Source: Bacteroidetes bacterium OLB12
GTDB taxonomy: Bacteria > Bacteroidota > Bacteroidia > Cytophagales > Cyclobacteriaceae
Direction of reading: 5' to 3'
NCBI GenBank assembly: GCA_001567185.1
Contig: LNFR01000020.1
Span: forward strand, 1 to 64,000
Length of the DNA: 64,000 nucleotides
Below, piece by piece: positions 18,403 through 38,223 of this stretch. The position numbers were made by a program, and so were the translations under genes. The notes under the pieces were generated by a model. That model was not told the origin of the DNA. It worked only from the letters and a program-made list of their open reading frames with translations, and did no database searches. Positions within the stretch are counted from its first letter, which is position 1. Each line of letters opens with the position of its first letter.

Positions 18403-20680
18403 CTACTGCAGCGTAAACTTCGCTTCCTTCACATCCCTGGAGTTACCCCCTACAAACACACTAAACTCACCGGGTTCTGCCACCCAATTCAAATCGTAGT
18501 TATAAAATGACAAATCTTCTTTCGTAAGTTGAAACGTTACGGTTTTTGTTTCACCCGCTTTGATCATTACTTTTTCAAACGCTTTTAACTCTTTTACCGG
18601 CCGCGTAACAGAACCTACCCAATCGCGCACATAAAGTTGCACCACTTCAGCCCCATCGTATTTTCCGGTGTTGGTTACATCAACCGATACGGTAAGGGTT
18701 TGTTCAGGAGTTATTGAGGACTTATCCAGTTTTACATCGCTGTATGCAAAAGAGGTATAACTCAGGCCAAAGCCAAACGGATAAAGCGGATCATTCGATA
18801 CATCGATATAGTTTGATTGAAACTTCTGAAACCACGGGCCACTAAGCGGCCGGCCCGTATTTTTATGGGCGTAATAAAGCGGTATCTGTCCTACATTTTG
18901 CGGAAACGTGGTAGTAAGTTTTCCGGAAGGATTTACGGCACCAAACAAAACATCGGCAATCGCATCGCCTGCTTCACTGCCACCAAACCACACATTTAGT
19001 ATAGCAGGTACATTTGCATTCTCCCAATTCAAAACCAATGGCCTACCGGTAAACAACACGGCCGCTACAGGCTTGCCGGTTTGAAGCAAGGCTTTGAGTA
19101 ACTCCCGTTGCGTTTGTGGTAGTTCCAGGTTTGTAACACTGCTTGCTTCACCTGTCATCTCAGCCGCTTCTCCAATTACCGCCACGACTACATCCGCACT
19201 CCGTGCAAGTCGTACAGCTTCGCTGCGCATTTCTTCGGCTGTGCGCTTATCGCGATTTAATGATTTGCCAAACATGGTGGCTCTTTCTTCAATGGCCGCA
19301 TCTTCATGTAAATTTGAACCTCGCGCATATACAATTTTGGCAGCGCTTCCTGCCGCTTTTGTAATTCCATCCATAACAGAAACCGATTCAGAGAAACGAG
19401 CAGCTACACTCCACGTGCCGGTCATATTTTCGCGTGTGTTGGCCATTGGCCCGATCACGGCTATCGTTCCGGATTTTTTTAATGGCAGAATATTGCCTTC
19501 ATTTTTCAGCAACACAAAACTTTCGGTTGCCGCCTTGCGCGCCTCAGCCCGGTTGGCAGCCGTAAATACTTCGGTGTTAGCGCGCTCTTCGTTACAATAT
19601 CTGTAGGGATCATCAAACAAACCTAATTGAAACTTTGCCTTCAGAATTCTGCGGCATGCTTCCGTTATTTCTGCTTCCGTTACTTTCTTTTCATCCACCG
19701 ATTTTTTTAAGGTTGTCAATAATCCTTCACTTACCATATCCATATCCAATCCGGCTTTCAGGGCACGGGCCGATACAGTTTGTAAATCACCAATACCGTG
19801 CGCGATCATTTCACTTACACCGGTATAATCAGAAACTACAAAGCCTTTAAAGCCCCATTGGTTACGCAACACATCGGTTAATAACCACTTGTTGGCTGTG
19901 GCCGGCACACCATCAATTTCATTAAACGAAGCCATGATGCTTCCGGCACCGGCTTCTACCGCAGCTTTGTACGGTGGAAAGTATTCGTTGTACATGCGGA
20001 TGCGACTCATGTCGGTAGTGTTATAATCGCGCCCGGCTTCGGCTGCGCCATACAAGGCATAATGTTTTACACACGACATGATCGTGTTGTTTGCGGAAAG
20101 ATCATTACCCTGATAGCCGCGCACCATTGCTTTCGCTATTTCAGCGCTTAGGTAAGGATCTTCGCCATTACCTTCCGATATGCGTCCCCACCGCGGGTCG
20201 CGCGATAAATCCAGCATGGGCGAAAACGTCCAGTTAATACCATCGGCACTGGCTTCGGTTGCAGCAATGCGTGCGCTGCGTTCAATTAACTCCATATCCC
20301 AACTGCAACTTATTCCCAACGGAATTGGAAATACACTTTCATAACCGTGTATCACATCCATTCCAAAAATGAGTGGAATTCCCAATCGGCTTTTTTCAAC
20401 AGCTATCTGTTGCATCTCGCGAATAGCAGCTACCCGTTTAATGTTGAACAAGCCACCCACCTGCCCTTGTTCTATTTTTTTGGCGATGTCGGAGTTTTCG
20501 GCTGCTCCGGTTGTAAACTGACCGGCCGATGGAAGATTAAGTTGTCCTATTTTTTCTTCCAGTGTCATTAAATTCAAAACGGAATCAACACGGGCATCAA
20601 TGCCTGCTTGTTGGTTGGTTGGGCCACCGCATGCTATAAAAACCAGTGCAAGGATGACGAAAGAAAAAGTATGCTTTCAT
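18403..20680 (-). CDS. bglX: GH3 beta-glucosidase (BglX type) lipoprotein, frameshift in signal peptide
   Basis: Main body of 724 residues: GH3 N-terminal barrel with GMDVIHGYE, SPMLDLSRDPRWGRISEGNGED, KHYALYG and nucleophile Asp in GFVVSDYTGV (residue 250 of the body), then the GH3 C-terminal domain and a fibronectin-III-like end (DVTNTGKYDGAEVVQLYVRD). Upstream of the first in-frame Met, a lipoprotein signal (VILALVFIACGG) continues in frame with the body. It joins the ATG at 20680 if one base of the A5 run at 20664-20668 is removed. It removes terminal glucose from beta-linked oligosaccharides in the periplasm. As last gene of the PUL it would finish breakdown; relatives include a sophorose-preferring enzyme. 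Confidence 0.93.
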
Positions 20681-20708: not shown

Positions 20709-22682
20709 TCAATAAGTAAATCCAAGTTTGGTCAGCCCGGTTTGAATTTCAGGGGCCGACATAAATAAATTCCAAAGTAAACCGGTGCGATAGTTCTCTA
20801 TCATTACAATAATAGGACCTTGATCGATGGCCAGGTAGGAGCTTGCATACCAGCCTTCCGTAATATTAAATGCATCATAAAATCCGTAAGGACCCCAAAG
20901 TTTATTGCCCAGGGTATAATAGAAAAATTTTAACGCATCCATGGACTCCTCCGGAGTATATGGAAATGCCGACAGCGCAGCCGATGGCGTAATTACACCC
21001 AAATCGTTGGTAGGCGAATGGGCACTATACCCTTGATGATTATCGCTGGCGGTAAGCCCCCAGTTAGTGCTGCTGTAGCCTACGAAATCGAGGGGATTAC
21101 GAATGCAATATTTGTAATTAATTAATGTGTGGTTGCGGTTCTGAGTAAAATAGTCTGAGCAATACGCATCGGACAAATCCCGCGGGTCTAAACCCAGAAA
21201 AGAATATTGTGATAAAAACAACGGGCCACCGTACGCACTACCCAAAGGCAGGGTTATTCCTTCATACACATTACCATTTATAATGTTGCCATTGTTTGCC
21301 CACCCGTTATCGTAAACTATTTTAGGAATAGTATGCGTGGGCGATGCAGCCGCCAATAAATAAACCATGAGAGCTTCGTTCCACCCTCTTACAGGAAGGT
21401 TAATCGTCCAATTCTTATCGGGCGACCAATGCCAATACAACACATTCTGATTTTCTCTCCGGTACCAGTCCCACTCCACACCCTCATACAGGGTAGTAAT
21501 TCTGGTTCGCAGTTCGTTTTCGGTTGCATTGCCGGCATTCAGGTATTGCCTTACGGTGATTAAACCCTGAACCAGGAATGCAGTTTCTACCAGGTCGCCC
21601 CCATTATCGTTCGTACTGAATGGAATAACCGCACCGGTGTTGCCGTTTATCCAGTGCGACCATGCACCATGAAAGCGATCGGCTGTTTCCAGAAAGTCGA
21701 GAATTTTGTCAAAGCGTTCGATACCTTGTTGACGGGTGATAAAGCCGCGTTCGATACCAACAATGATTGCCATCAGGCCAAAGCCTGAGCCACCGCTGGT
21801 TACCCAATCGTCCGAAGTGTTGCGTTCGCGGGCCATACCGCTGGCCGGGTGCGCAAAATCCCAAAAATATTTGAAGGTTTGTTGTTGTACGAGGGTAAGC
21901 AGGTCTTCATCTGAAATGATGGGGAATTTTGGAGTTTCATCAAAAACTGTATAGAATACACGCTGCGTACCGGCATAGGATTGTCCTTCCGCTCCTTTTA
22001 ATGCACTTGAAATTGTAGCTGTGTACTTGCTTAAATACTGCAATGGAGATGATGTGGTAACCTTAACCGTTTTGTTGTCATTCAATAATTCTGTGGAAAC
22101 AACAACCGCAGATGGCCCTGTTATTTTGAAAACAGAATTATTAACCGTGGCCGGATTTAAGGGAGCTGAAAAATCGTACGCTGCCTCAAAGGCTGTAATT
22201 GGAATATCTGTAACCCGCGCTGCGGTAAGGGTTTGCTGGTTTATCCGTGTAGCGATTAATTGCAAGCTGCCCGGAACAGTTTTAAAATTTATTTCACGAA
22301 CGGAAAAGGATGCGCCATTAGCTGCTTGCAGCTGCTCAGAAATAGTAAGCTTATACGTGGTACTTTGTTCCAAAGCTCCTGTAGGTTGTACTACCACCAC
22401 CTGGTTATTGTTTAAGAAACTCAGGGTAATAGTAATTGAACCAGCCGAAGTTGTAAGCTGGATGGCTGTGTTTGCCGAAGTTGAAACAACCGGTGTAGAA
22501 AATGAAAGTGTAAACGTGGCATCGGTGGGGATGTCGTTATTTACTGCACCTGAAAGATCAAGTCTTTGTGATCCGACAAACACGTCCATCAGATCAAGTG
22601 GTGTAATAGCTTCATCTTCCCGGCAACCTGCAAAAACAAGGGTTGCCACTACACTACACACAAAAAAAGTTCTCTTAAACAT
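20709..22682 (-). CDS. Glycoamylase-like (GH144-type) glycoside hydrolase lipoprotein with Ig-like N-terminal domains
   Basis: 657 residues. A lipoprotein signal (LVFAGC) is followed by two Big_5-like beta-sandwich domains (about residues 30-250), then a 400-residue alpha/alpha barrel of the glycoamylase family (PF10091). Visible signatures are TFKYFWDFAHPASGMARERN, GSGFGLMAIIVGIERGF, FHGAWSHWINGNTG, NDNGGDLVETAFLVQGL, YWHWSPDKNWTINLPVRGWNEA and ITEGWYASSYLAIDQGPI. The Bacteroidota branch of this family includes GH144 endo-beta-1,2-glucanases. That assignment is inferred from family and context. It lies between the LamG lipoprotein and GH3 genes, 28 bases upstream of the GH3 start. Confidence 0.85.
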   Translation of the reverse strand: MFKRTFFVCSVVATLVFAGCREDEAITPLDLMDVFVGSQRLDLSGAVNNDIPTDATFTLSFSTPVVSTSANTAIQLTTSAGSITITLSFLNNNQVVVVQPTGALEQSTTYKLTISEQLQAANGASFSVREINFKTVPGSLQLIATRINQQTLTAARVTDIPITAFEAAYDFSAPLNPATVNNSVFKITGPSAVVVSTELLNDNKTVKVTTSSPLQYLSKYTATISSALKGAEGQSYAGTQRVFYTVFDETPKFPIISDEDLLTLVQQQTFKYFWDFAHPASGMARERNTSDDWVTSGGSGFGLMAIIVGIERGFITRQQGIERFDKILDFLETADRFHGAWSHWINGNTGAVIPFSTNDNGGDLVETAFLVQGLITVRQYLNAGNATENELRTRITTLYEGVEWDWYRRENQNVLYWHWSPDKNWTINLPVRGWNEALMVYLLAAASPTHTIPKIVYDNGWANNGNIINGNVYEGITLPLGSAYGGPLFLSQYSFLGLDPRDLSDAYCSDYFTQNRNHTLINYKYCIRNPLDFVGYSSTNWGLTASDNHQGYSAHSPTNDLGVITPSAALSAFPYTPEESMDALKFFYYTLGNKLWGPYGFYDAFNITEGWYASSYLAIDQGPIIVMIENYRTGLLWNLFMSAPEIQTGLTKLGFTY

Positions 22683-22801: not shown

Positions 22802-24514
22802 TTAGTCGTTCATCATCTCTTGAATTTCCGCTTGAGAAAGTTTGCGATTAAATATTCTGATTTCATCAATCAAGCTGTTATCGGAAAGATGGCCCCACTC
22901 CGTGAAACGTGGTGCACCCGATCCGATCGAAATGAACTCGCAATCGGCCCAGCTAACACTTCCGGTAAAGGTTGATTCTGCTCTTAACAAGGTACCATCT
23001 GCATAAATTCCGTGCGATCCATCCCCCACTACCATGGTAATAAACACCCAGTCGGTTGCTGAAATCGTACCACCATCATTCCAGGATTCGCCCGAACCAA
23101 TTCCTACGTTGCTCTTCACCGGGCTAACACCACCTTCTCTGAAAAGGCGGAAACCACTGGTTCGGGTGTTGGTGCCAGGAGGGCCAACGGTAAGAATTCC
23201 GGCCCGATCGGGGGTAGTATTGGCTTTATACCAGAAGGAAATACTAAAGGCAGTTCCCAGTTCTAAGTCTGCAATAGGATAAGTAAGATACGAATCGGCT
23301 GCTCCGGCATAGGCCTTTCCAACTTTACCTGTTTGTAAAGATGGAGTGCCTACAACAGTTGCGTTTGCACCACCAACCAGGTCTCCATAGTCTGCATCAA
23401 ATGGCATATAGAATACTTCTCCTTCATATTTAGGAGAGTAGTCGCTGCCAATTATTGCTAACACATCTGCCTGCGTAAGCGCCTTATCAAACAACCTAAG
23501 TTCATCCATATAGCTGGCATCCGATTTATGATTCCATTCTGTAAAGCGCGGAGCGCCAGACATAATTGAAAGTATATCACAGCCTGTCCAGTCAACGCCA
23601 CCCGTTAGGGCACCTTGCGAAGCCACATTACCATTGATGTAAACTGCGGCATTGGTTGCTGAAATTGAGATAGCAAAATGAACCCACTCGCCAGTATTGG
23701 GTACAACATCGGCATTGGTTCCGCCATCAAACCAGGTATCACTGGTTCCATTGCCCACGTTTAACTTAAACCGCTGCTTGCCGCCTGCATTTTCGCGGAA
23801 AAACCGGAAGCCCTGAGTACGGGTATTAATACCCGGAGGGCCGGCTACCAACACACCTGCACGATCTGGTGTAGCATTTACTTTCATCCAGAAAGAAGCG
23901 CTAAACTCAGTACCTAACAGCCCTTCGGTGGGGAATGTAAGATAGGCATCGGTAGCACCTTTATAAGCGTTACCACCTTTCTTGCCTTCGCCTGCAAAGG
24001 AGGGTGTGCCTACAACGGTAGGATCCGAAATGGTTATCAATTCGGTATAAATTCCATCAAAAGGCATGTAGAAAGTCTCTCCATCAAATACAGGCACGTA
24101 TGGTGGTTTCTTCTCAAAATTGATATTAGTGGTGGTAACCTTATTCTCAATGTCCGTTGCTGAAATGGTTAACACGTGTACTCCGGTAGTTAACCCTTCA
24201 TATAAAATATCTTTTACAGATCGTCTATAGTCCAGGAATTCAGTAAAAGAAGCCACATCATTACCGTCCATTTTCACATTGATGCTTTTAATCTCAATAT
24301 CATCCGTCACTTCAAACTTGATGTTGATGGATATGAGTGTTTCGGCCACTTTAATTTCAGTACCTTCAACCGGATAGGCTACATTAATTACTGGTGCAGT
24401 TTCATCCGCTCCGGGCGCTACTGCACTAATCGGGTCTATCCCCTCATTACAAGCACCCACCATACCTATGATGGCTATTGCTGCAATAACATTTTTAATT
24501 ATTCTGATTCTCAT
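22802..24514 (-). CDS. Double-LamG surface lipoprotein, candidate glycan-binding protein of the PUL
   Basis: 570 residues. A lipoprotein signal (MVGAC) leads into an Ig-like domain (about 40-135) and two LamG/concanavalin-like domains (about 145-350 and 355-570). The two share near-identical stretches: FYMPFD, SFWMK/SFWYK, TPDRAG, GFRFFRE/GFRLFRE and SGAPRFTEW. They are clearly an internal duplication. The position directly after susD is where PULs usually encode a surface glycan-binding protein, so it probably captures the same glycan. The gene starts 18 bases after the likely true stop of susD. Confidence 0.8.
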   Translation of the reverse strand: MRIRIIKNVIAAIAIIGMVGACNEGIDPISAVAPGADETAPVINVAYPVEGTEIKVAETLISINIKFEVTDDIEIKSINVKMDGNDVASFTEFLDYRRSVKDILYEGLTTGVHVLTISATDIENKVTTTNINFEKKPPYVPVFDGETFYMPFDGIYTELITISDPTVVGTPSFAGEGKKGGNAYKGATDAYLTFPTEGLLGTEFSASFWMKVNATPDRAGVLVAGPPGINTRTQGFRFFRENAGGKQRFKLNVGNGTSDTWFDGGTNADVVPNTGEWVHFAISISATNAAVYINGNVASQGALTGGVDWTGCDILSIMSGAPRFTEWNHKSDASYMDELRLFDKALTQADVLAIIGSDYSPKYEGEVFYMPFDADYGDLVGGANATVVGTPSLQTGKVGKAYAGAADSYLTYPIADLELGTAFSISFWYKANTTPDRAGILTVGPPGTNTRTSGFRLFREGGVSPVKSNVGIGSGESWNDGGTISATDWVFITMVVGDGSHGIYADGTLLRAESTFTGSVSWADCEFISIGSGAPRFTEWGHLSDNSLIDEIRIFNRKLSQAEIQEMMND

Positions 24515-24532: not shown

Positions 24533-26077
24533 TTAATTACTGCTTCCTGCTTCTCTCAAAACTGCCAGTTGATCGCGCTGAGCCTGAGGATATGGCAAAT
24601 AAATTTTTATTGGTTGTAAAGGTTCTGCCATCATAGCTTAGCGGAGTGTAATCACCCAGGCGAATCAAATCGTAGTATCTGGTTCCCCCATTCCATAGCT
24701 AAACTCAGCAAATTTTTCATCCATTACCTGTTGTGCGGTTACACCAGATAATCCACTCAAACCTACGCGGTCGCGCACCAGATTAACAGCTGCATCTGCA
24801 CTAATAGATGAACTGGTAGCGCCCCGTGTTAAAGCTTCGGCATGCATCAATAATACTTCGGCATACCGGATACAGATAAAGTTTTTATTTGTACCGTAGG
24901 ATGTGCGGCCTGGTGTTAACTGATTAGAGGGCAGGTAGTGTTTGCCACTTGCAAACATAGCCCGGCTGTAATTGTTAAACACGTCACCATCTGGAGTAGT
25001 GTTGCTTATCCAGGCAGGCAACGTAGCATAGTTTGGATCGGCTTTAATCGCATCGATACCCCGGTCGGTAAAGATTACGGTTGTTAGCAACCGCTCATGC
25101 TCACCCCTGTCCAGCATAAACTTGATATACTTCATGCTCGGCTCATAAAAGCCCCAGCCTCCACCGGCACCGGTAACGGCAGGTGTCCATGACTGCGGTC
25201 CAAAGAATGCAAACAAATAGCTTGTTTGATTTCCGGAAGGTTGGCCCAGATCGGTGTACTGCAACTCTAATAAATTCTCGTTACTTAGTTTACCAGGTAT
25301 TTTGAATAGTTCATAGTAGTCTGGTTCCAGCGTAAACAGGTTTGAACTAATAATCTGAGTAGTTGCATCTGCCACCTTCTGATATTCTTTCAACTCAAGA
25401 TTTGCCAATGCTTTAATGGCCAACGCAGTGTGTTTGGTTACACCCCCTGTAATGTCTGTTCTTTGATTTGGACGTTGGTTGGGAAGCAGTGGAATTGCTG
25501 CATCCATCTGGTCAGAAATATGCTGCATTACATCATTCTTTGATGACAGCGGCATAACCAGGAAATCAGAAGGATCGGAAGAAACCGGAATAAAAATATT
25601 ACCCCAAACTCTTGATAACTGAAGCATTAAAAAAGCACGAAGTGTTTTTATTTCAGCAATATATTGATCGGCCAAAGCCGGGTTTGGCGCAAATTCTCTA
25701 TACTTACTAATCTGCTCCATGGCAGAATGTAAATCCAGCACATCGCCATAAATTCCCTGCCATACGGAATTATACATCCAGTAATCAACCGTATAGTTGT
25801 AAACATCTGTTTCAGCAAATTGGGGTTGGTCTCCTAATCCACCGGCATTTACATCATCTCCTCTTACAGCAATTAATGGGTATTGCTCCCACGCCCTGGC
25901 CTGAAAAGTAGCATAGGCACCAATTAAAGGTAAATTCATATTGGCTGTAATCGTGTAGTCGGTCTGATCGGTGTACACGAGATTTTGCTGTGGTTCATCC
26001 AATACATTACATGAGGAGGCTCCTAATAATGCAATACTGAATGCAGCAACTTTGAATAAATTATTTTTAGCTTTCAT
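24533..26077 (-). CDS. susD: SusD/RagB-family starch-binding-like lipoprotein, two frameshifts near the C-terminus
   Basis: A lipoprotein signal (LLGASSC) is followed by the helical TPR-like SusD fold: LIGAYATFQARAWEQYPLIAVRGDD, SVWQGIYGDV, EIKTLRAFLMLQLSRVWG, FICIRYAEVLLMHAEA and AAVNLVRDRVGL. The first frame stops at 24665 after FSYGMG. Two one-base changes, a missing base in the C5 run 24685-24689 and an extra one in the T5 run 24604-24608, restore RYYDLIRLGDYTPLSYDG and IYLPYPQAQRDQL, ending at 24533. SusD caps the SusC channel and binds the glycan. It lies 12 bases after susC. Confidence 0.93.
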
Positions 26078-26089
26078 ATCTGTTGCATT

Positions 26090-29000
26090 TTAAAATTTAA
26101 CACTTACACCCGCTGTATAAACTGCGGGTATTGGATAAGTCTGTGTATCTATACCATCCGCAATTTCAGGATTGAATCCATTGTACTTGAATGTGGTAAG
26201 CGGGCGTTCGGCAGTAAGTGTAAACCGCATGTCAGGCAACTTCACACCACCTATATTTTTCTGGTTAACATTGTACGAAAGGTTGATATTCTGGATACGG
26301 AAGAAAGCGCCATCCTCCACAAAGTAATTACTCATCTTTTGATTCCATGCCTTCCGCAATCCTGCAGATGATGGATATTTATTGGAGGTTCCTTCACCAT
26401 GCCACCTGTTAATAGCCAGGTCGGCATCCATGTTACCATCGTTTGTCCAGATTATTTCACCACGCTTACGGTTCAATATCTTGTTTCCGCTTTGTCCGTA
26501 TAGATTAACTCCAAAATCGAAATTTTTGTAGCTAACACCCAGGTTTGCTCCATACGTAAGTTTGGGCAGGTAAGATCCCAACACCACACGATCCTTCTCA
26601 TCAATTACATTATCATTATTCTGATCTTTGTAAATAAAATCGCCTGGTACAATACCTCCTTGTGCCACAGCGGCAGGGTCAGCAGCTACCTGTTCGGCAG
26701 TTTGATATACCCCAAGTACTTCGTAACCAAAGAAGGCGGCAAGTGGCTGCCCTACAATCGTTCGCTGACGGAATTCAGCAGAACCACCATCAATATAAGG
26801 TTGTCCGTAAATGCTGCGGGTTTCATTTTTAACCGTAGTGAAATTTACACCCACATTATATTTCAATCCACTGGCTAGTTCATCATTCCAGTTCAAGGCA
26901 ACTTCAATACCCGAATTTCTAATTACCCCTACCGAACGACTTACTACCTGGCCGGTAATAGGAGTAATAATTGGAATGGCTGCATCCTTGGTGTCTCTCA
27001 GGTAATAATCTGCGGTTAGTCTCAGTTTGTTGTTCAACACTTCCAGATCAATACCCACATTGCTGCCTTCCACCTTTTCCCATAAAAGATAGGAGAAGTT
27101 GTTTGTTGAAACAGTTCCCGACTGTATCGTTCCATTAATGGCTGTAGTTACAACCGAAGCGGTATTGGCTCCGCTACTGGAAGGAACACTACTGTTTCCT
27201 AACCTACCCCATCCTGCCCTTAATTTTAAAAAGTTAACAGGAAGTCCGCTCATAAAGCTCTCTTCAGAAATAACCCAGCCAGCACCCACCGCAGGGAAGG
27301 TTCCCCACTTCTCCTGGTACTGCATAGTTCCATCTCTTCTTAAGGTTGCGTAAACCAGGTACTTTTCGTTATAGTTGTAGGCTACTCTTCCAAAATAAGA
27401 AAGCCCATAAATCCGGTTACCACCGTCTGAAACTGTACGCGACTCAACCGGGGTTTGCCCAAGGAACCAGGTATCTTCCCGATCTATTGATTGAAGTTCA
27501 CTACCCGAGCCGGATAAACGTTCCCAAGCCTCGTCTCGGTAAGACATACCCAACATACCTTCTACGGTATGGCTGCCAAAACTTTCTCTATAGTTTAAAA
27601 CGTTATCCCAAATCTGGTTAAAGGTGTTGTAAGCAGTTTTTGTTATGGTTGACAAATTTCTTTGCAATGCTGCCGACACATAAAAAGGCAACCCTACATA
27701 CCGCTCATTCTGGAAAGTTCCACCCACATTATAGGTTGTTTGAAACGTTAGTTTATCTTCCAGGAAGTTAAACTTTGCATAGAAATTGGTAAGAATCTTT
27801 TTAGTTCTGATTTGATTGTTGCTGTAATCCATGTACGGGAACGGGTTCTTTCCATCGCGGTATCCCAATGTTTGCGCACTGGCATACCGTACAGGCCATG
27901 CATCCGTATTCAGTTCATCAATTACAGGCATAATCGGAACTGCAAAGTAAGCTACATTCCATGCCGAAGCAGATTGTGCGTAGGTCATTCCGTTGCTCAA
28001 TAAGGCATTTCCACCAACTGTTAACCAATCGTTAGCGGCATAATCCAGTTTTAAGCGAACATTAAAACGCTCATAACTATTTTTCATATCCAGAATTCCG
28101 CCTTGCTTGAAATAACTGGTTCCTACGGAATAGGAAGTGTTTTTGTCTCCCCCCGAAATTCCAATGCTGTGATTCTGAATAGTAGCCGGACGGAGTATTT
28201 CTTTGTACCAATCGGTGTTTACATCGGGTACATTCGGGTTAATGCGGCTTCTGCCATACCGTTGCATAGCTGCATCTATGTAGGCAATATCCGCGGCTGA
28301 GCCTGACTCAAGAGCCATATTTGTGAATTGCTCGGCATTCGCCATTTTAAGAACATTCTGAGCTACCTGGGTTCCAACGTAACCATCATACACAATTTCA
28401 GATTTCTTGTTATAACTACCGGATTTGGTCGTAATCAATACAACCCCATTGGCAGCTCTAACACCATAAATGGCGGCCGCAGAAGCATCTTTCAATACTG
28501 AAATGTTCGCAATATCTGCCGGATTGAGAAAATCGATATTGTCAAAAAACATCCCATCCACCACATACAACGGATTGGTATTACCAATGCCTGGGTAGGA
28601 TCCAATACCACGGATGCGAACTGTTGGCGAACTTCCAGGCGAGCCTGAGTTTACAATCTGAACGCCTGTTACCTTTCCCTGAAGTGCCTGCATGGCTTGT
28701 CCCTGAGGGGTTTTTAGCAGTTCGGCCGAATTAATTTTGCTAATGGCAGATGTGAGATCTTTTTCTTTCTGCACACCATACCCTACAACCACTACCTCAT
28801 CCAGCGCTGTAACATCTGTTTCCAGAATAATGTCAACAATTGATCTGGAGCTCACATCAATTGTTTGGGTTTTATACCCAATAAAACTGAAAACAAGCGT
28901 GTTTTCGCCAGAAGCAAGAGAAATTGAATAGGACCCATTAGCATCTGTTGCAGTCCCTTTGGTAGTACCTTGCACCAACACACTCACGCCTGGCAGCGTG

Positions 29001-29107
29001 GATCCATCATCAGAAGCAGTCACCTTCCCAGTCACCACACGATCCTGGGCCATTACCATGTTCAGCAAAAATGCTGAAAGCAAAGCAGTTAATAGTATTT
29101 TTCTCAT
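26090..29107 (-). CDS. susC: SusC/RagA-family TonB-dependent outer-membrane transporter
   Basis: About 1005 residues from the Met at 29107, which opens the signal peptide. Order: a carboxypeptidase-regulatory-like domain (GKVTASDDGSTLPGVSVLVQ), the TonB-box region (EVVVVGYG), the plug (SPTVRIRGIGSYPGIGNTNP, YVVDGMFF, NISVLKDASAAAIYGVRAANG) and a long barrel ending in AGVSVKF. It imports oligosaccharides across the outer membrane using TonB energy, working as a pair with SusD. There is no N-terminal STN domain, so anti-sigma signalling through this receptor is not expected. Regulation more likely comes from the sensor gene upstream. Confidence 0.97.
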   Translation of the reverse strand: MRKILLTALLSAFLLNMVMAQDRVVTGKVTASDDGSTLPGVSVLVQGTTKGTATDANGSYSISLASGENTLVFSFIGYKTQTIDVSSRSIVDIILETDVTALDEVVVVGYGVQKEKDLTSAISKINSAELLKTPQGQAMQALQGKVTGVQIVNSGSPGSSPTVRIRGIGSYPGIGNTNPLYVVDGMFFDNIDFLNPADIANISVLKDASAAAIYGVRAANGVVLITTKSGSYNKKSEIVYDGYVGTQVAQNVLKMANAEQFTNMALESGSAADIAYIDAAMQRYGRSRINPNVPDVNTDWYKEILRPATIQNHSIGISGGDKNTSYSVGTSYFKQGGILDMKNSYERFNVRLKLDYAANDWLTVGGNALLSNGMTYAQSASAWNVAYFAVPIMPVIDELNTDAWPVRYASAQTLGYRDGKNPFPYMDYSNNQIRTKKILTNFYAKFNFLEDKLTFQTTYNVGGTFQNERYVGLPFYVSAALQRNLSTITKTAYNTFNQIWDNVLNYRESFGSHTVEGMLGMSYRDEAWERLSGSGSELQSIDREDTWFLGQTPVESRTVSDGGNRIYGLSYFGRVAYNYNEKYLVYATLRRDGTMQYQEKWGTFPAVGAGWVISEESFMSGLPVNFLKLRAGWGRLGNSSVPSSSGANTASVVTTAINGTIQSGTVSTNNFSYLLWEKVEGSNVGIDLEVLNNKLRLTADYYLRDTKDAAIPIITPITGQVVSRSVGVIRNSGIEVALNWNDELASGLKYNVGVNFTTVKNETRSIYGQPYIDGGSAEFRQRTIVGQPLAAFFGYEVLGVYQTAEQVAADPAAVAQGGIVPGDFIYKDQNNDNVIDEKDRVVLGSYLPKLTYGANLGVSYKNFDFGVNLYGQSGNKILNRKRGEIIWTNDGNMDADLAINRWHGEGTSNKYPSSAGLRKAWNQKMSNYFVEDGAFFRIQNINLSYNVNQKNIGGVKLPDMRFTLTAERPLTTFKYNGFNPEIADGIDTQTYPIPAVYTAGVSVKF

Positions 29108-29341
29108 CATACACATGTGCGATTTGATTGTTTCGCGATATGAATTTTTGAAATATTCTACTATTGATGTGATTTATTTAAAAAAATTTAGGTGAGAATT
29201 ACCGCAAACTGGAAGTTGCGAAAATCATGTTTTCATTGAATAAAAACATTGATTTCAAACGTTAGCATGAATATTTACGGGGGTACATTGGATATTTTTC
29301 TTCTTAAAAAACATTCTTCCGCAAAGCATGGCAAAAATACA
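29108..29341 (-). promoter_or_regulatory. Likely promoter/operator region of the PUL
   Basis: 234 bases between the sensor gene and susC, both read on the - strand. It is AT-rich and has no gene. A GGGGGTACATTGG element at 29279-29291 is flanked by AATATT-like half sites (around 29269 and 29292). No clear TTTG/TANNTTTG promoter was found, so the call rests on position before a normally highly induced gene. Confidence 0.4.
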
Positions 29342-31255
29342 CTATCCGGAAACGATTTCTGTTTTTCCAGGCCGCGGCTTTGCTTTCTCCTTGTTGTGGT
29401 CTAAAATAACATCCTGCCATTTTGTGGCCGTAATTTCATGGCCAAACTTGCTCTGTTCTGTTATTCGTTCCTGCACTTTCTTTCTGAACCCCCAAATGGC
29501 GTTAACGCCTATCTCCAATTGTACCGAAAGCGCCTCCAGCGTAGCGGCCTTCTTGCCTGTTACAGCCAGGTAGGCAATGTAAAACGCCTTCTCTATAGGG
29601 AATTTTATACTGTGAAAAACCGTGTATGCGGTTATAGACTCATTGTATCCACACCGGGTACACCTACGCGCAAATTTTTGAGCGCCCTCAAAATATTTAT
29701 TGTTACCGCATTTGCGGCAGGTAAAGCCTTCGTTCCATTTTAGTTCTTCTAAAAACCGGTAGCACGATAACGAATCTGGATAAAGCGTTTTAAACTCATC
29801 ATAGTCCATGGTTTTCTCCATCAGGCGTTCCTCCAAAACAACCTTTATCCTGTTTTTCAACTTCCAGTTATCGAGGTCCAACACAGAATTAATCTGGTTA
29901 ATTTCATGCGTCTGTTTTACCAAACGTGCATTACTTGTCTCTAACTCTGCATTCTTTAGATTCAATTCTGATGTGCGTTCGTTTACTTTCTGCTCCAATT
30001 CCCGCGTAACCTTGTCCTTTAACTCCATGTTTAACTCATGCTGATGGATGATTCTGCGCAAAGCGCGGTCGCGGTTGTCTTTCAGAATAGTAATCCGATC
30101 ACCCAGGGCAAACGTGAGGAATAACATCTCCACCACAAAGCTGAAGTGAAGGCTGTAATGCGACACCGTAGTAAGGGCAATGATATTGAAGAATACCAGC
30201 GAGCGAACAAAGAACCCGATCAGCAGCAGTCCGTACGCAATTACAAAGTACCGGGCCGGCCTGTAACCGCGCATCAGTATATAAACACCTGCGTAAAAGA
30301 TGAGCGAAAGCGGTAAAATTTCAATAAACCTGAACGCAAAAAACTCGGGATAAAAGAATAATTCGAAAAGAAAAACGAATGTGCGCACCACAATCATAAC
30401 CCTCAGCGCCAAATCAATACGAGGGGCCTTTGTGCGGGTGCTCAAAAATCTTCTTGTAAAAACAAGTGCCCATAATATTACCAGGTACAAGCAAATACCC
30501 GATGCATAATCATTCCATTGTGGAAAGTTAGGCCAGATGTATTGAAACCCTACGCCATCCAGACTCATCGCATAAAGGGCAACACTTATTATATAGAAGA
30601 TGTAATACACATTCTTGATCTCTCGAATGGCCAGAAACACAAGGAAGTTGTACAAGGCAATGATTACAATCATGCCATAGAAGGTTCCAAACAGAAAGTA
30701 TTCGTTTAATGCGTAATAAATAAACCGATCGACCGAGCGAAAGGCTATGCGGATATCGGCAAACTCGTGCGACTGAACTCTGAAATAGTAATATTGAATG
30801 GATGGATCGTGTGGATAGAGTTTGAACCTCAAAGTTTTATGACTGAATTTTCGCTCAAGAAAAGGATAGGCATCACCCATCACCCGTTTTTCATACGTAC
30901 CATCCGGCCTGGGCAGATAAGCTTCGATGTGGTCTATGGTCTGATCGTAAAATTCTATAAGCCAAACTTTATCGGTTGGTATATGCTCTACAGAAAAGCG
31001 AATCCAATACGATTCGCCCGAACGATAATCTTTATTCTGGTAAGTTGGTCTTCGGGCAAAATTACTTTTGAACCTGGGCTCAGAAATTTCTTCAAATGAA
31101 AGTGTATTGCCCGGGTCAATAAAAAATTCCAGTTCATTCAGCAGAAATATCCGTTCATCGGTATCATCGCGGGTGGTGGCTGTTTGGCCATAACCAACAC
31201 CCACACCTGCCAAAATCAGAATAAATGAAAAGAAAAAAACGCGCCATGGCCCCAT
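29342..31255 (-). CDS. 7TM-DISM membrane sensor fused to an IS1595-type zinc-ribbon/HTH module, likely PUL regulator
   Basis: 637 residues from the Met at 31255, which opens a signal peptide (ending GYGQ). Numbered from an upstream Met at 31327, the order is: a 7TMR-DISMED2-like periplasmic domain (60-200; YWIRFSVEH, YYYFRVQSHEF), seven membrane helices (205-410), a coiled coil (415-500), then C537-x2-C540 and C556-x2-C559 of a zinc ribbon. After it come FHSIKFPIEKAFYIAYLA and a helix-turn-helix-like LEALSVQLEIGVNAIWGF (598-615). The last part matches the DNA-binding head of IS1595/ISXO2 transposases, without the DDE catalytic domain. The protein could sense a sugar outside and bind DNA at the membrane. 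It lies directly upstream of susC on the same strand. Confidence 0.82.
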   Translation of the reverse strand: MGPWRVFFFSFILILAGVGVGYGQTATTRDDTDERIFLLNELEFFIDPGNTLSFEEISEPRFKSNFARRPTYQNKDYRSGESYWIRFSVEHIPTDKVWLIEFYDQTIDHIEAYLPRPDGTYEKRVMGDAYPFLERKFSHKTLRFKLYPHDPSIQYYYFRVQSHEFADIRIAFRSVDRFIYYALNEYFLFGTFYGMIVIIALYNFLVFLAIREIKNVYYIFYIISVALYAMSLDGVGFQYIWPNFPQWNDYASGICLYLVILWALVFTRRFLSTRTKAPRIDLALRVMIVVRTFVFLFELFFYPEFFAFRFIEILPLSLIFYAGVYILMRGYRPARYFVIAYGLLLIGFFVRSLVFFNIIALTTVSHYSLHFSFVVEMLFLTFALGDRITILKDNRDRALRRIIHQHELNMELKDKVTRELEQKVNERTSELNLKNAELETSNARLVKQTHEINQINSVLDLDNWKLKNRIKVVLEERLMEKTMDYDEFKTLYPDSLSCYRFLEELKWNEGFTCRKCGNNKYFEGAQKFARRCTRCGYNESITAYTVFHSIKFPIEKAFYIAYLAVTGKKAATLEALSVQLEIGVNAIWGFRKKVQERITEQSKFGHEITATKWQDVILDHNKEKAKPRPGKTEIVSG

Positions 31256-31411
31256 TTGTATTCTGGTTAAAGGTCGGAAAAATATTGCGTTCAATGGTTT
31301 GAAAGTATTATTAATGTGGTTACCCACGCTTTAGCAGCATTGGCGGTTACGTTTTGTTTTCAGAACAGGATTTTAGATTTTTAGCAGAACCTAAAATACC
31401 AACTTACCATT

Positions 31412-32052
31412 ATGCCTTTTTCACTTGCCATTTCACCCAGCAAAACACCCCTTAAAAACAACCGCTGGCTACAGGTTTTTATTATTGTATTTGTGGCGGT
31501 TTGGAGTTCTACACTCGTTGGTACTACCGACATCAGCAACTGGATTTTAGAGAATACCCTGGTATTTATCTTTCTCGCTTTTATGATTTTCACGTTTAAA
31601 AAATATCAATTCAGCGATTTAAGTTATCTCCTCATTTGTATATACCTCTGTCTGCACGTGTATGGCTCAAAATACACCTATGCCGAAAACCCGTTTGGGT
31701 ATTGGCTGAAGGAAACATTCGACATGAAGCGAAACCATTATGACCGGATTGTTCATTTTAGCTTTGGGTTTTTGCTGGCTTACCCCATGCGCGAAATGTT
31801 TTTAAGCTGGCTCCGGTTTCCGGTGTGGGTTGCCTGGGCTTTGCCAATAGAAATAACACTTTCTATCAGCGGATTTTACGAGTTGATTGAATGGGCTATT
31901 GCCGATGTATTCTTTCCTGCGCAAGGCGATGCTTACCTGGGCACCCAAGGCGATATCTGGGATGCACAAAAAGATATTTTTTAGCAACATTAGGAGCCAT
32001 CTCAGCAACCAGTATTGTATCGACAATCAAAAAGGTATTTAACATCCGGTAG
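31412..32052 (+). CDS. DUF2238 (YjdF-like) membrane protein, one frameshift
   Basis: About 213 residues with several hydrophobic helices. The family signatures are YGSKYTYAENPFGYWL, NHYDRIVHFSFGFLLAYP, SGFYELIEWAIADVFFP and GTQGDIWDAQKDIF. The frame stops inside the last motif at 31984; adding one T to the T6 run at 31977-31982 continues LATLGAISATSIVS to a TAG at 32050-32052, the normal C-terminal helix. The function of the family is unknown. It is convergent with gap. Confidence 0.85.
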
Positions 32053-35967: not shown

Positions 35968-38223
35968 TTAACCTCTGCGTCTGGAGGAATAGTAGCGTTC
36001 CAATGCATCGGCTCCTCCTGATTCAGCGGCCTCCTTGTTTCGTTTTTCCTTTACCCGATGCCGTTCTTGCTCTACCTCTGCACGACTGGCCAGAATGGGT
36101 TGCAGGTTAACCGGGAATAGAACCAAAAACTTAGTTCCATTTTCGGAGGTATCCAGTAAAAATATTTCGCCACCCAGTTTATGAGCCGATAGTTTGGCTA
36201 AGTAAAGTCCAATACCACCATTTTCAGATCGTTCGGATGCCCGCACAAATAAATGAAACACCTCGTTGCGGTCTTTCGGAGCGATACCAATACCATTGTC
36301 TTCAACTGAAACCATAACATAATCTGCATCATACTTACCAACCTCAATTTTTACAAACGGATCAATCCGGTCTGAGGTATTATAGAATTTAATGGAATTG
36401 CTCACCAGGCTTTCGATAACAATAGTAATCAACCCCGGGTCGGAGTCCAGTTGCACATTGTCGGCTATCTTGCAATCAATTCGCATACGGGGCGGAAGCT
36501 GTTTAAATTTCCGTACGATATTCTGCACAATAGCGTTGAAGTTTATCCTTTCAGGAACTAAAACCACGTGATTAATCTGACTTACTGTTAACAGCCTGGT
36601 AAGAATAGCATTTAACTTTTCTGCTGTAAGATCCAATCGTTTGAGGTAGTCCAGCGCCAATAAATCTTTTACATCCATCAGCGCAACATTACAAATCCCT
36701 TTAAGGGTTACCAGCGGGCCGCGAATATCATGCGCAGTGCGGTAGATGTAATTATCAAGTTCTTCATTTACATCTTGCAACATGGTATTGGCATCAACCA
36801 GGTCGATGGTTTTTTCGCGAACACGCTTATCCAACTCTTCGTTGGTTTTAGTAAGCTCTTTGTTTTGCCGCTCGATAACCCGCTTTGCCTCGCTAAGAGC
36901 TGAGTTGTGTTTTTGCTGGCGCCTGTTGGCCCAAACCAGAAGGCCGGCCAACGTGGCGATAAACATGGTAACCACCACCGCAAAAATATATTGTAAACGC
37001 TGCCGTTGAATTTGCTCGTCTTTCAACCGGATATTTTCGTCTTTAAGTTGAATGGTTTTTAAGTTCTCTCGTTGTTCAAAATTTGTTTGAATGGTTGCCA
37101 GGTTTTTAAGCAGGTTTTCACTGTAAATACTGTCTTTCAATTCGATATACTTTGTCTGAAACAATGCTTCATTCTTGAAATCACCTGTTAATCTATAATT
37201 ATTGAATGACTCTCTATAGATATCCAACCGCAACTCAGCAAAACCTGAATTTTGTGCCAATGAATTTGCCTCGTTGAGGTGATCCAGACTGGCCTGAAAA
37301 TCCTCCTTTCTATTCTCAATTTTTGATAGTCCAATTAAATTCTCAATCAAATACCTCGTGTCATTTTGATCCCTTGCCAGTGCTAATGATTTATTTAAGT
37401 AAACGACTGCATTGTCAAGATCCGAATTATCGAGGTAGCTAATTCCAAATACAAAATTCGCTTCCTTTAAAACACTTTGCGAACAATTTTCACCACATGT
37501 CTTCAATGCTCGCTTAACCGAATTAATTGCCTCATTTGGCATTTTAAGTTGATTGTAACATAATCCTATATTGGTTAGTACCCTTTCAATATCTGCATTA
37601 TCCTTCAATTCATCTTTGATTGCCAGAGCTTGTAAGTAATGGTCAAGAGCCCGTTGGTAATTCCTAAGTTTAAAATAAACCAAACCGATATTGTTATGTG
37701 AGTTGCCAACTGCTCGATCATCACCTTCTTCCTCACGCAACAAAAGCGATTTGAAATGATAACTGAGTGCCGAGTCATAATTTCCCCGGTACATGTAGGC
37801 AATACCAGCATTATTCAATATGAATTTTATCTGTGTTTTAATAGCCGGGTACCGGGTAACATTTCTGTTTGCAATTGCCAAAACACGATTAAGCATTTCA
37901 ATTACTTCATCACTCCTACCCAAATCATCAAGCGAATAAGCAATCATTCTACCACTCTCCACAATCTTTATACTATCCCCCAATGCTTCAGCCTGGTTAT
38001 AGGCCAGCTGGGCAAAGTCAAGAGCTTGATGAAACTCTGCGCGCGAAGCGTAGTGAAGTTTTACCAGGATTGCATAGCGGGAAGTATCTTTGGCCTTTGA
38101 AAGCAATTGTTTCAGAGAATCTATTTCTTGATTCGTGCCCTGAGCAAGTACAATACCGGAATTAGTCAATACCAAAATCCAGATACAGAAGAATCTCAAA
38201 TACTTAAGTAAGTTACGGCACAT
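35968..38223 (-). CDS. TPR-containing sensor histidine kinase
   Basis: 751 residues. A signal peptide is followed by periplasmic TPR repeats (about 50-390; e.g. NNAGIAYMYRGNYDSALSYH, HNNIGLVYFKLRNYQRALDH), one membrane helix (411-431), a coiled coil, and the kinase core. The phospho-accepting His is H498 in RTAHDIRGPL; the ATP-binding N-box is SLVSNSIKF, G1 EDNGIGIAP and G2 NGGIGLYLAK. The C-terminal tail is charged. No response regulator is adjacent, so it is an orphan kinase. TPR domains bind peptides, and two tiny secreted-peptide genes are transcribed divergently from the same 135-base promoter region. Confidence 0.93.
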   Translation of the reverse strand: MCRNLLKYLRFFCIWILVLTNSGIVLAQGTNQEIDSLKQLLSKAKDTSRYAILVKLHYASRAEFHQALDFAQLAYNQAEALGDSIKIVESGRMIAYSLDDLGRSDEVIEMLNRVLAIANRNVTRYPAIKTQIKFILNNAGIAYMYRGNYDSALSYHFKSLLLREEEGDDRAVGNSHNNIGLVYFKLRNYQRALDHYLQALAIKDELKDNADIERVLTNIGLCYNQLKMPNEAINSVKRALKTCGENCSQSVLKEANFVFGISYLDNSDLDNAVVYLNKSLALARDQNDTRYLIENLIGLSKIENRKEDFQASLDHLNEANSLAQNSGFAELRLDIYRESFNNYRLTGDFKNEALFQTKYIELKDSIYSENLLKNLATIQTNFEQRENLKTIQLKDENIRLKDEQIQRQRLQYIFAVVVTMFIATLAGLLVWANRRQQKHNSALSEAKRVIERQNKELTKTNEELDKRVREKTIDLVDANTMLQDVNEELDNYIYRTAHDIRGPLVTLKGICNVALMDVKDLLALDYLKRLDLTAEKLNAILTRLLTVSQINHVVLVPERINFNAIVQNIVRKFKQLPPRMRIDCKIADNVQLDSDPGLITIVIESLVSNSIKFYNTSDRIDPFVKIEVGKYDADYVMVSVEDNGIGIAPKDRNEVFHLFVRASERSENGGIGLYLAKLSAHKLGGEIFLLDTSENGTKFLVLFPVNLQPILASRAEVEQERHRVKEKRNKEAAESGGADALERYYSSRRRG

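Follow-up and report, generated by a model that had tools for sequence, protein, structure and literature searches.

A conserved PUL-linked family of 7TMR-DISM receptors with an IS1595-type head, probable regulators of glycan-use loci in Cytophagales

INTRODUCTION

According to the available text of two papers (PMC3878776 and PMC11501099), HTCS such as BT1754 are single inner-membrane polypeptides that sense glycans in the periplasm, pass the signal through a transmission segment in the cytoplasm, and bind DNA with their C-terminal part, and their genes lie beside susCD, with direct-repeat operators. The accessible part of PMC3878776 terms the HTCS sensor COG3292, reports fewer HTCS homologues in Cytophagales than in Bacteroides, and predicts operators for SusR-like regulators that consist of direct repeats with centers 67 or 77 bp apart, taken to be occupied by a dimer from one face of the DNA; the HTCS box spacers given in these excerpts are 5, 6, and 9 bp.

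Here, we analyze a protein encoded in a 64,000-nucleotide stretch of Bacteroidetes bacterium OLB12 (contig LNFR01000020.1, positions 1 to 64,000; “the window” means this whole stretch) that is laid out like an HTCS, in a gene beside susCD with a candidate direct-repeat operator. Unlike HTCS, it has no histidine kinase, receiver, or AraC HTH among its Pfam matches up to an E value of 1 and carries an IS1595-type head instead. Because HTCS are also single membrane-spanning proteins with a DNA-binding end (PMC3878776 and PMC11501099, in the parts available), that arrangement is not itself new for PULs; an earlier note on this DNA had proposed a different design of PUL control, which would hold for the IS1595-type head as output and not for the arrangement. 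The candidate boxes start 64 to 66 bp apart, unlike the short spacers of HTCS and much like SusR-like operators. This protein has 7TMR-DISM and IS1595-type parts, and we take the likeness in spacing to SusR-like operators as probable convergence.

Known outputs of 7TMR-DISM receptors include kinases, cyclases, and phosphatases. NicD and RetS share the periplasmic and membrane domains of our regulator; NicD, a 7TMR-DISMED2/7TM protein, is reported in the available portion of PMC8544897 to bind carbohydrates directly and to have a GGDEF output, whereas the output here is a head of DNA-binding type. An ERT-type signaling-helix motif is described in the accessible text of PMC1592074, in which the signaling helix is proposed to keep outputs inactive until a change occurs in the sensor. 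IS1595/ISXO2 transposases share with the regulator the zinc ribbon and the helices that follow it; unlike them, the regulator lacks DDE, is fused to a receptor, and is present in a single copy beside a PUL in its own genome. Another mobile-element protein, TldR, derives from TnpB. Both TldR and the MULE-derived FHY3/FAR1 have been turned into transcription regulators (PMC13418256 and PMC13306707, as far as their text is available), as we propose here. They stem from element families other than IS1595, TldR is RNA guided, and the available text makes no mention of membrane anchoring. Our searches of the open-access literature found no description of an IS1595 head on a 7TMR-DISM or Reg_prop protein. 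The protein is most likely a regulator, of a type most likely new as a version of the single-protein membrane PUL regulators.

RESULTS

Architecture of the regulator

The coordinates given in the earlier note for the gene, 29342-31255, are right, and the coding strand is the minus strand, which is open for 637 codons (31255..29342), while plus-strand frame 1 has many stops (Table 1). The domain order seen earlier, of receptor, coiled coil, zinc ribbon, and HTH, was borne out by Pfam and AlphaFold2. As in the 7TMR-DISM class, the 7TM domain scores above the Pfam cut-off and a DISMED domain is present, the latter matching the RetS periplasmic domain (3jyb/2xbz) in Foldseek with an E value of about 2e-4. 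The AlphaFold2 model (mean pLDDT, 86.7) is confident for the sensor and the 7TM bundle, which are followed by a long helix (residues 368 to 452); the putative ERT-type signaling-helix motif in it was judged by eye, and its E421, R427, and T428 are invariant in the 79 aligned sequences. When the full-length model was ranked by Foldseek, Wntless came first, the RetS sensor second, and GPCR-like bundles after, and we take the likeness to Wntless and GPCRs as probably a generic 7TM shape. A profile of the full protein found no solved structure at an E value of 0.01.

Residues 452 to 478, between coil and head, are the only stretch with pLDDT below 50. Such a linker would suit a variant in which the same regulator acts after regulated proteolysis, a stimulus leading to cleavage within about 452-478 and thereby to a soluble head dimer that regulates susC. 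N456, L459, D460, N463, L466, and K467 are, however, invariant in the 79 sequences, as would suit a structured or contacting segment better than a loop free to be cleaved, and we consider this variant quite improbable.

The head was modeled confidently (mean pLDDT of 89.2 on its own). Its ribbon matches Zn_ribbon_IS1595 (PF12760) at 32.2 bits, above the curated cut-off of 25.4; the lack of such a match was one of two outcomes that the earlier note had named as refuting its reading. The four cysteines described earlier are present, but their numbers (C537, C540, C556, and C559) count from a GTG at 31327, 24 codons upstream of the ATG, with which the longest ORF begins; from the ATG at 31255 they are C513, C516, C532, and C535, and they are invariant in 79 of 79 aligned sequences, as is W588 in the HTH. 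The NCBIfam model transpos_IS1595 (NF033547) matches residues 551 to 602 over model positions 3 to 55 of 215 at 20 bits (cut-off, 75), a subthreshold match to the part after the ribbon only, without the catalytic part. The DDE catalytic domain is absent, as had been noted: Pfam gave no PF12762 match in the regulator, and only 13 to 41 residues follow residue 604 in the 79 proteins, so that no DDE domain fits in this family. With a zinc ribbon above its cut-off and no DDE domain, the regulator is not a transposase. Among solved structures, one search of the head gave no relative with an E value under 0.001 and another gave partial HTH matches (best E value, 0.011); in these searches, no solved structure supported the head fold as a whole.

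TABLE 1 Features of the regulator gene, the gap that follows it, and the adjoining PUL
Feature	Coordinates	Strand	Basis or remark
Regulator gene	31255..29342	-	637 aa, start ATG at 31255
7TMR-DISMED2 periplasmic sensor domain, residues 41-170	30746..31135	-	Pfam, 85.1 bits
7TMR-DISM_7TM membrane domain, residues 185-387	30095..30703	-	Pfam, 152.8 bits
Cytoplasmic helix, residues ~400-452, putative ERT-type signaling-helix motif	29900..30058	-	Model and alignment
IS1595-type zinc ribbon, residues 497-537, C513 C516 C532 C535	29645..29767	-	PF12760, 32.2 bits
Helix-turn-helix region, helices 554-566, 573-580, 584-603	29447..29596	-	AlphaFold2 and alignment
Candidate operator box 1	29295..29316	-	Two-box model
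Candidate operator box 2	29230..29251	-	Two-box model; starts 135 bp before susC start codon
Conserved 24-mer with CGTTTG-type half, overlaps box 2	29240..29263	-	Conservation in gaps
susC-like TonB-dependent transporter, next gene	26090..29116	-	Start 225 bp downstream of regulator
susD-like lipoprotein	24665..26077	-	Family read by eye and position
LamG-type protein, surface glycan-binding candidate	22802..24514	-	Laminin_G_3
GH144-type endo-beta-1,2-glucanase candidate	20709..22682	-	Pfam “Glycoamylase”
GH3 beta-glucosidase candidate	18403..20577	-	Pfam; several solved beta-glucosidases matched

The adjoining PUL and a conserved, PUL-linked family

Residues 256 to 655 of the GH144-type candidate match 5gzh (“Endo-beta-1,2-glucanase”) with an E value of 2.5e-153, and the GH3 candidate matches solved beta-glucosidases; because of these matches, we predict that the substrate of the PUL is most likely beta-1,2-glucan. 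Also near the locus is a histidine-kinase-like protein with TPR (window 35968-38223, minus strand; read by eye), which is unrelated to the regulator finding.

A protein search of 58 relatives (own genome included) found 20 ortholog-type matches in the genus at 55 to 100% identity, of which one is cut short by the end of its contig, together with two diverged copies at 37 to 38% and more distant matches beyond the genus. A scan of named genomes gave at least 576 relatives, of which the best 80 were kept for analysis. These include Cyclobacteriaceae, Chryseolinea, Fulvivirga, Roseivirga, and Algoriphagus, and 79 of the 80 keep the CxxC...CxxC zinc-ribbon pattern; L109 ends at a contig edge, without the Cys motif, and L097 has no next ORF, and both were left out of the neighbor count. 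The alignment of 79 consists of the window protein and 78 of the best 80 relatives.

IS1595 elements occur in the phylum, and a recent IS insertion or an assembly artifact might be thought to have fused a transposase fragment to a receptor. The fusion is, however, intact in 78 further sequences over 600 aa, with identities as low as 43%, and no PF12760 match other than the regulator exceeds the cut-off in its genome (assembly 92% complete). Conservation over 79 sequences and this sole match rule out a chance or artifactual fusion, to which we assign a negligible probability.

The next gene is susC, on the same strand, in 70 of the 78 named loci with a next ORF (from the best 80; median gap, 250 bp) and in 18 of 18 fetched same-genus ortholog regions, for which the neighbor listing took ORFs that exceed 200 aa or match a protein of the window. 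In the genus, the neighborhood is kept even though identity to the window's susC drops to about 31%. At least 9 kb of downstream sequence was available for 57 susC-linked loci; all 57 have susD, 56 have a GH144-like gene, and 38 have a GH3 gene, a count affected by GH3 genes that are often near or past the end of the locus. Of the eight named loci without susC as the next gene, L100 has a GH144-like gene there, at a contig end, L131 and L133 have susC a few genes further on, and L076, L118, L120, L122, and L139 have other genes. The orthologs at L118, L120, L122, and L139 have neither susC beside them nor a box pair in their regions, and their targets may lie elsewhere.

As a control, headless 7TMR-DISM proteins from the same family of bacteria had susC or susD in 0 of 20 regions (about 4 kb downstream); the central ORF of one of these (L327) was missed by our own 7TM profile but is a PF07695 match. 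Head-bearing loci of the same draw had a same-strand susC in 11 of 16 cases (Fisher P = 7e-6), with the window included, about 0.8 kb available downstream, and L264, a head-bearing locus with no room downstream, counted as lacking susC. The regulator thus has the fixed PUL neighbor expected from the earlier reading: it is PUL linked, with a same-strand susC neighbor conserved over species, and belongs to a conserved, PUL-linked protein family with a transposase-type head.

Diverged paralogs lie upstream of other susC PULs, with GH30 at L053 and with GH16 plus GH3 at L055, and many paralogs in other families are not beside susC. Outside the susC-linked lineages, one to three neighbors were annotated for each paralog. 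They comprise GH81/GH16 (L178), GH97 (L180), GH81 and a lectin (L181), GH18 (L196), a pectate-lyase-like protein (L202), an alginate lyase (L212), and GH3 (L176, L210, L058, and L204); no clear glycan enzyme was among the one to three annotated neighbors at L174, L175, L177, L182, L195, L197, L198, L201, L205, L208, L211, and L213. At L181 (5455-9300), two 7TM-head regulators stand in tandem, near the GH81 enzyme and a legume-type lectin.

A candidate operator in the regulator-susC gap

The gaps between regulator and susC share conserved blocks. A model-free direct-repeat scan covering spacings from 15 to 120 bp, run on 66 of 71 gaps (69 within 150 to 500 bp, then thinned), peaked at 66 (z = 6.8) and 65 (z = 4.7). 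A two-box model with the consensus nAATGTTTTTnAnnnGnnAAAn, seeded by eye and trained on the sequences that it scores, placed pairs at 64 to 66 bp above the 99% null in 65 of the 70 gaps (of 71) that were at least 120 bp long, and mean pair scores were 12 to 17 at these spacings versus a median of 2 over spacings of 25 to 105. When the model was trained on the 49 near gaps only, 16 of 22 held-out distant gaps reached the 95% null and 11 the 99% null, wrong-spacing scores also reaching the 95% level in 26% of 440 cases. The pair in the window scores 36.3 bits at a spacing of 65 and lies within the binding region proposed earlier, 29108-29341.

Across 80 loci (1,445,370 bases, both strands), we found 56 pairs of at least 26 bits, and 55 of them are on the coding strand in the interval from the regulator to the gene after it; the conserved two-box element is largely restricted to the regulator-susC gap. 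Near most paralogs, including L194, L053, and L055, the full pair was not significant under the two-box model. The 56th strong pair (L076:8017-8104) starts 175 bp before a contig end and 4.3 kb from its regulator, which is followed by another gene; it perhaps stood before a susC that the contig break has cut off.

In the 65 supported gaps, box 2 starts 85 to 463 bp before the mechanically called susC start, mostly 130 to 200 bp. Sequence does not tell the sign of control, and the head might bind DNA and repress, keeping susC off until sugar is present. We regard repression as unlikely: box 2 mostly lies more upstream than we would expect for a repressor, and SusR-like and HTCS regulators, also with predicted direct-repeat sites, activate PULs.

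A 20-mer overlapping box 2 gave 31 matches at up to 2 mismatches in 40 genus genomes, and the reversed control pattern gave 8, so that most of the 2-mismatch matches may be due to chance. All 13 matches with 0 or 1 mismatch are intergenic and in loci holding a head gene and susC, as are 2 of 18 further classified matches (2 to 3 mismatches); one match without a locus was left unclassified. The own genome has one exact match. A 2-mismatch match in the own genome (G000:C33:14574-14593; L291) lies between FBPase-like and aspartate-kinase-like genes (named by eye), at a promoter where a CGTTTGAAATCAAT-type site is conserved in three genomes (G000, G023, and G009; L291, L293, and L298). We rejected this site as a second target of the regulator, as the likeness is limited to the CGTTTGAAATCAAT half and a strong box pair is absent, and we read it as the site of another factor; because it resembles one half of the 24-mer upstream of susC, a general carbon regulator may be involved.

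Because the CGTTTG-type half recurs without box 2 elsewhere, a second, more general factor may share the susC promoter, and since its possible site overlaps box 2, part of the box conservation may not be the regulator's own. Zinc ribbons can bind proteins, and the head could dock a separate regulator rather than bind DNA, in which case the boxes would belong to another factor, such as the owner of the CGTTTG half-site; the conservation of the CGTTTGAAATCAAT stretch at the FBPase-like/aspartate-kinase-like promoter in three genomes is in line with this. Against it, box 2 is kept in gaps without the CGTTTG half (L075, L082, L088, and L114), strong two-box pairs occur essentially only beside the regulator gene, and the HTH retains its invariant tryptophan. 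Docking is therefore, in our estimation, rather unlikely.

An RNA element in the gap was rejected, as Rfam gave no match up to an E value of 1 in 28900-31500 and the repeats are direct, not inverted. We also considered whether the operator derives from IS1595 terminal repeats and dropped the idea: the IS1595 elements of G480, G663, and G423 yielded inverted-repeat candidates for some copies, which by eye bear no clear likeness to the boxes. In the f13 family, 15 of 18 loci, representing 12 of 14 distinct places, have a TTGTTTTTTA-type box no more than 700 bp behind the regulator, and no spacing peak at 65 to 66 was found in the 18 loci. Upstream of the box in some f13 gaps (L168 and L215) are GCAAACGTTTGC-type palindromes, which perhaps mark the site of a second, LacI-like regulator.

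Proposed mechanism

We think it probable that the protein is a membrane-tethered one-component activator, with a captured IS1595 head, of the predicted beta-1,2-glucan PUL that starts at susC. The periplasmic 7TMR-DISMED2 domain would bind a piece of the glycan, most likely a beta-1,2-gluco-oligosaccharide that the GH144-type enzyme sets free, and the signal would pass via the 7TM bundle and a dimeric signaling helix. The two zinc-ribbon/HTH heads of the dimer would then bind the two direct-repeat boxes upstream of susC, whose spacing of 64 to 66 bp corresponds to about six DNA turns, and the bound heads would activate susCD and the GH144/GH3 genes. In this model, we infer DNA binding, dimerization, the ligand, activation, and the regulator's ownership of the boxes.

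The protein would represent a probable added regulator type for glycan-use loci in Cytophagales and a bacterial example of a transmembrane receptor that has taken over a transposase head as its output. The concrete candidate operator makes binding, spacing, and ligand directly testable. If the model is true, many proteins of these bacteria that match a transposase zinc ribbon sense glycans, and their annotation should say so.

Distribution and origin of the head

A profile of the head matched 125 of 291 genomes of the order (E value of 1e-5) and 54 of 395 of the phylum (E value of 1e-6), some of the matches being transposases; head copy numbers are lower bounds because only the best 13 (order) or best 9 (phylum) candidates per genome were scored. 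At least 10 head matches listed for one genome (G152) are in frames of 615 to 655 aa. Outside the order, the listed matches are mostly in frames of about 280 to 370 aa, plus shorter ones, and some are multicopy with equal scores (G480 and G663). Fusions of 649 to 650 aa with both 7TMR-DISM domains occur in two genomes of other orders, with a zinc ribbon at 26.7 bits, above the cut-off, in G566 and at 21.0 bits, below it, in G457.

The usual sensor of the head-bearing family is 7TMR-DISM, but four head-bearing proteins of 997 to 1,068 aa in two genomes (L194, L200, L349, and L350) use Reg_prop/Y_Y_Y, the usual HTCS input. PF12760 is above cut-off in L194 and L200, and L349 and L350 were matched by our own head profile only; the L194 gene lies directly upstream of susC and susD. 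Swapped sensors before one C terminus are as expected of an output module.

For the trees, 146 7TM heads were thinned to 46 and then to 25, and two Reg_prop heads were added, L349 and L350 being left out. In the 51-head tree, 27 regulators lie on one side of a branch and 21 transposase rows on the other, with support of 98/91 when a short head (L221) is admitted and 88/43 without it. The regulators, L222, and L220 with the other G480 elements join at an unresolved fork (87/81), L224 with a short head comes next, and transposases need at least three changes on this tree. The 64-row tree agrees in outline; in it, the Reg_prop heads lie among the 7TM heads, which therefore do not form one separate clade. 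Pfam tests of 20 of the 21 transposase rows found DDE_Tnp_IS1595 above cut-off in 17, below it in L300 and L304, and not at all in L227; L312 is a second fetch of L224. The transposases nearest to the regulators include L220, L222, and L224, all with DDE_Tnp_IS1595.

The trees are consistent with an origin of the head in IS1595 transposases, as the earlier note had supposed, and these comparisons of sequences support its interpretation as a PUL regulator with a transposase-derived putative DNA binder. With midpoint rooting, the tree reads as one capture of the head from IS1595, a direction that depends on the root and on the few transposases sampled. More broadly, we lean slightly toward a class of Bacteroidota glycan regulators in which a single captured IS1595 head serves as a kinase-free output on two unrelated sensors, 7TMR-DISM and the Reg_prop/Y_Y_Y propeller, with binding to long-spaced direct repeats much as predicted for SusR and an expansion in Cytophagales to the 10 or more regulator-length frames of G152.

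Two genomes stood out among the short heads and elements. G480 has nine listed matches, of which the eight used (L220 and L300 to L306) are among the transposases closest to the regulator head and have weak DDE scores. G244 has at least 20 listed short frames (154 to 190 aa) on many contigs, with the zinc-ribbon head only and nearly equal scores, many of them at contig ends; these are probably copies of an IS with the head in a separate frame.
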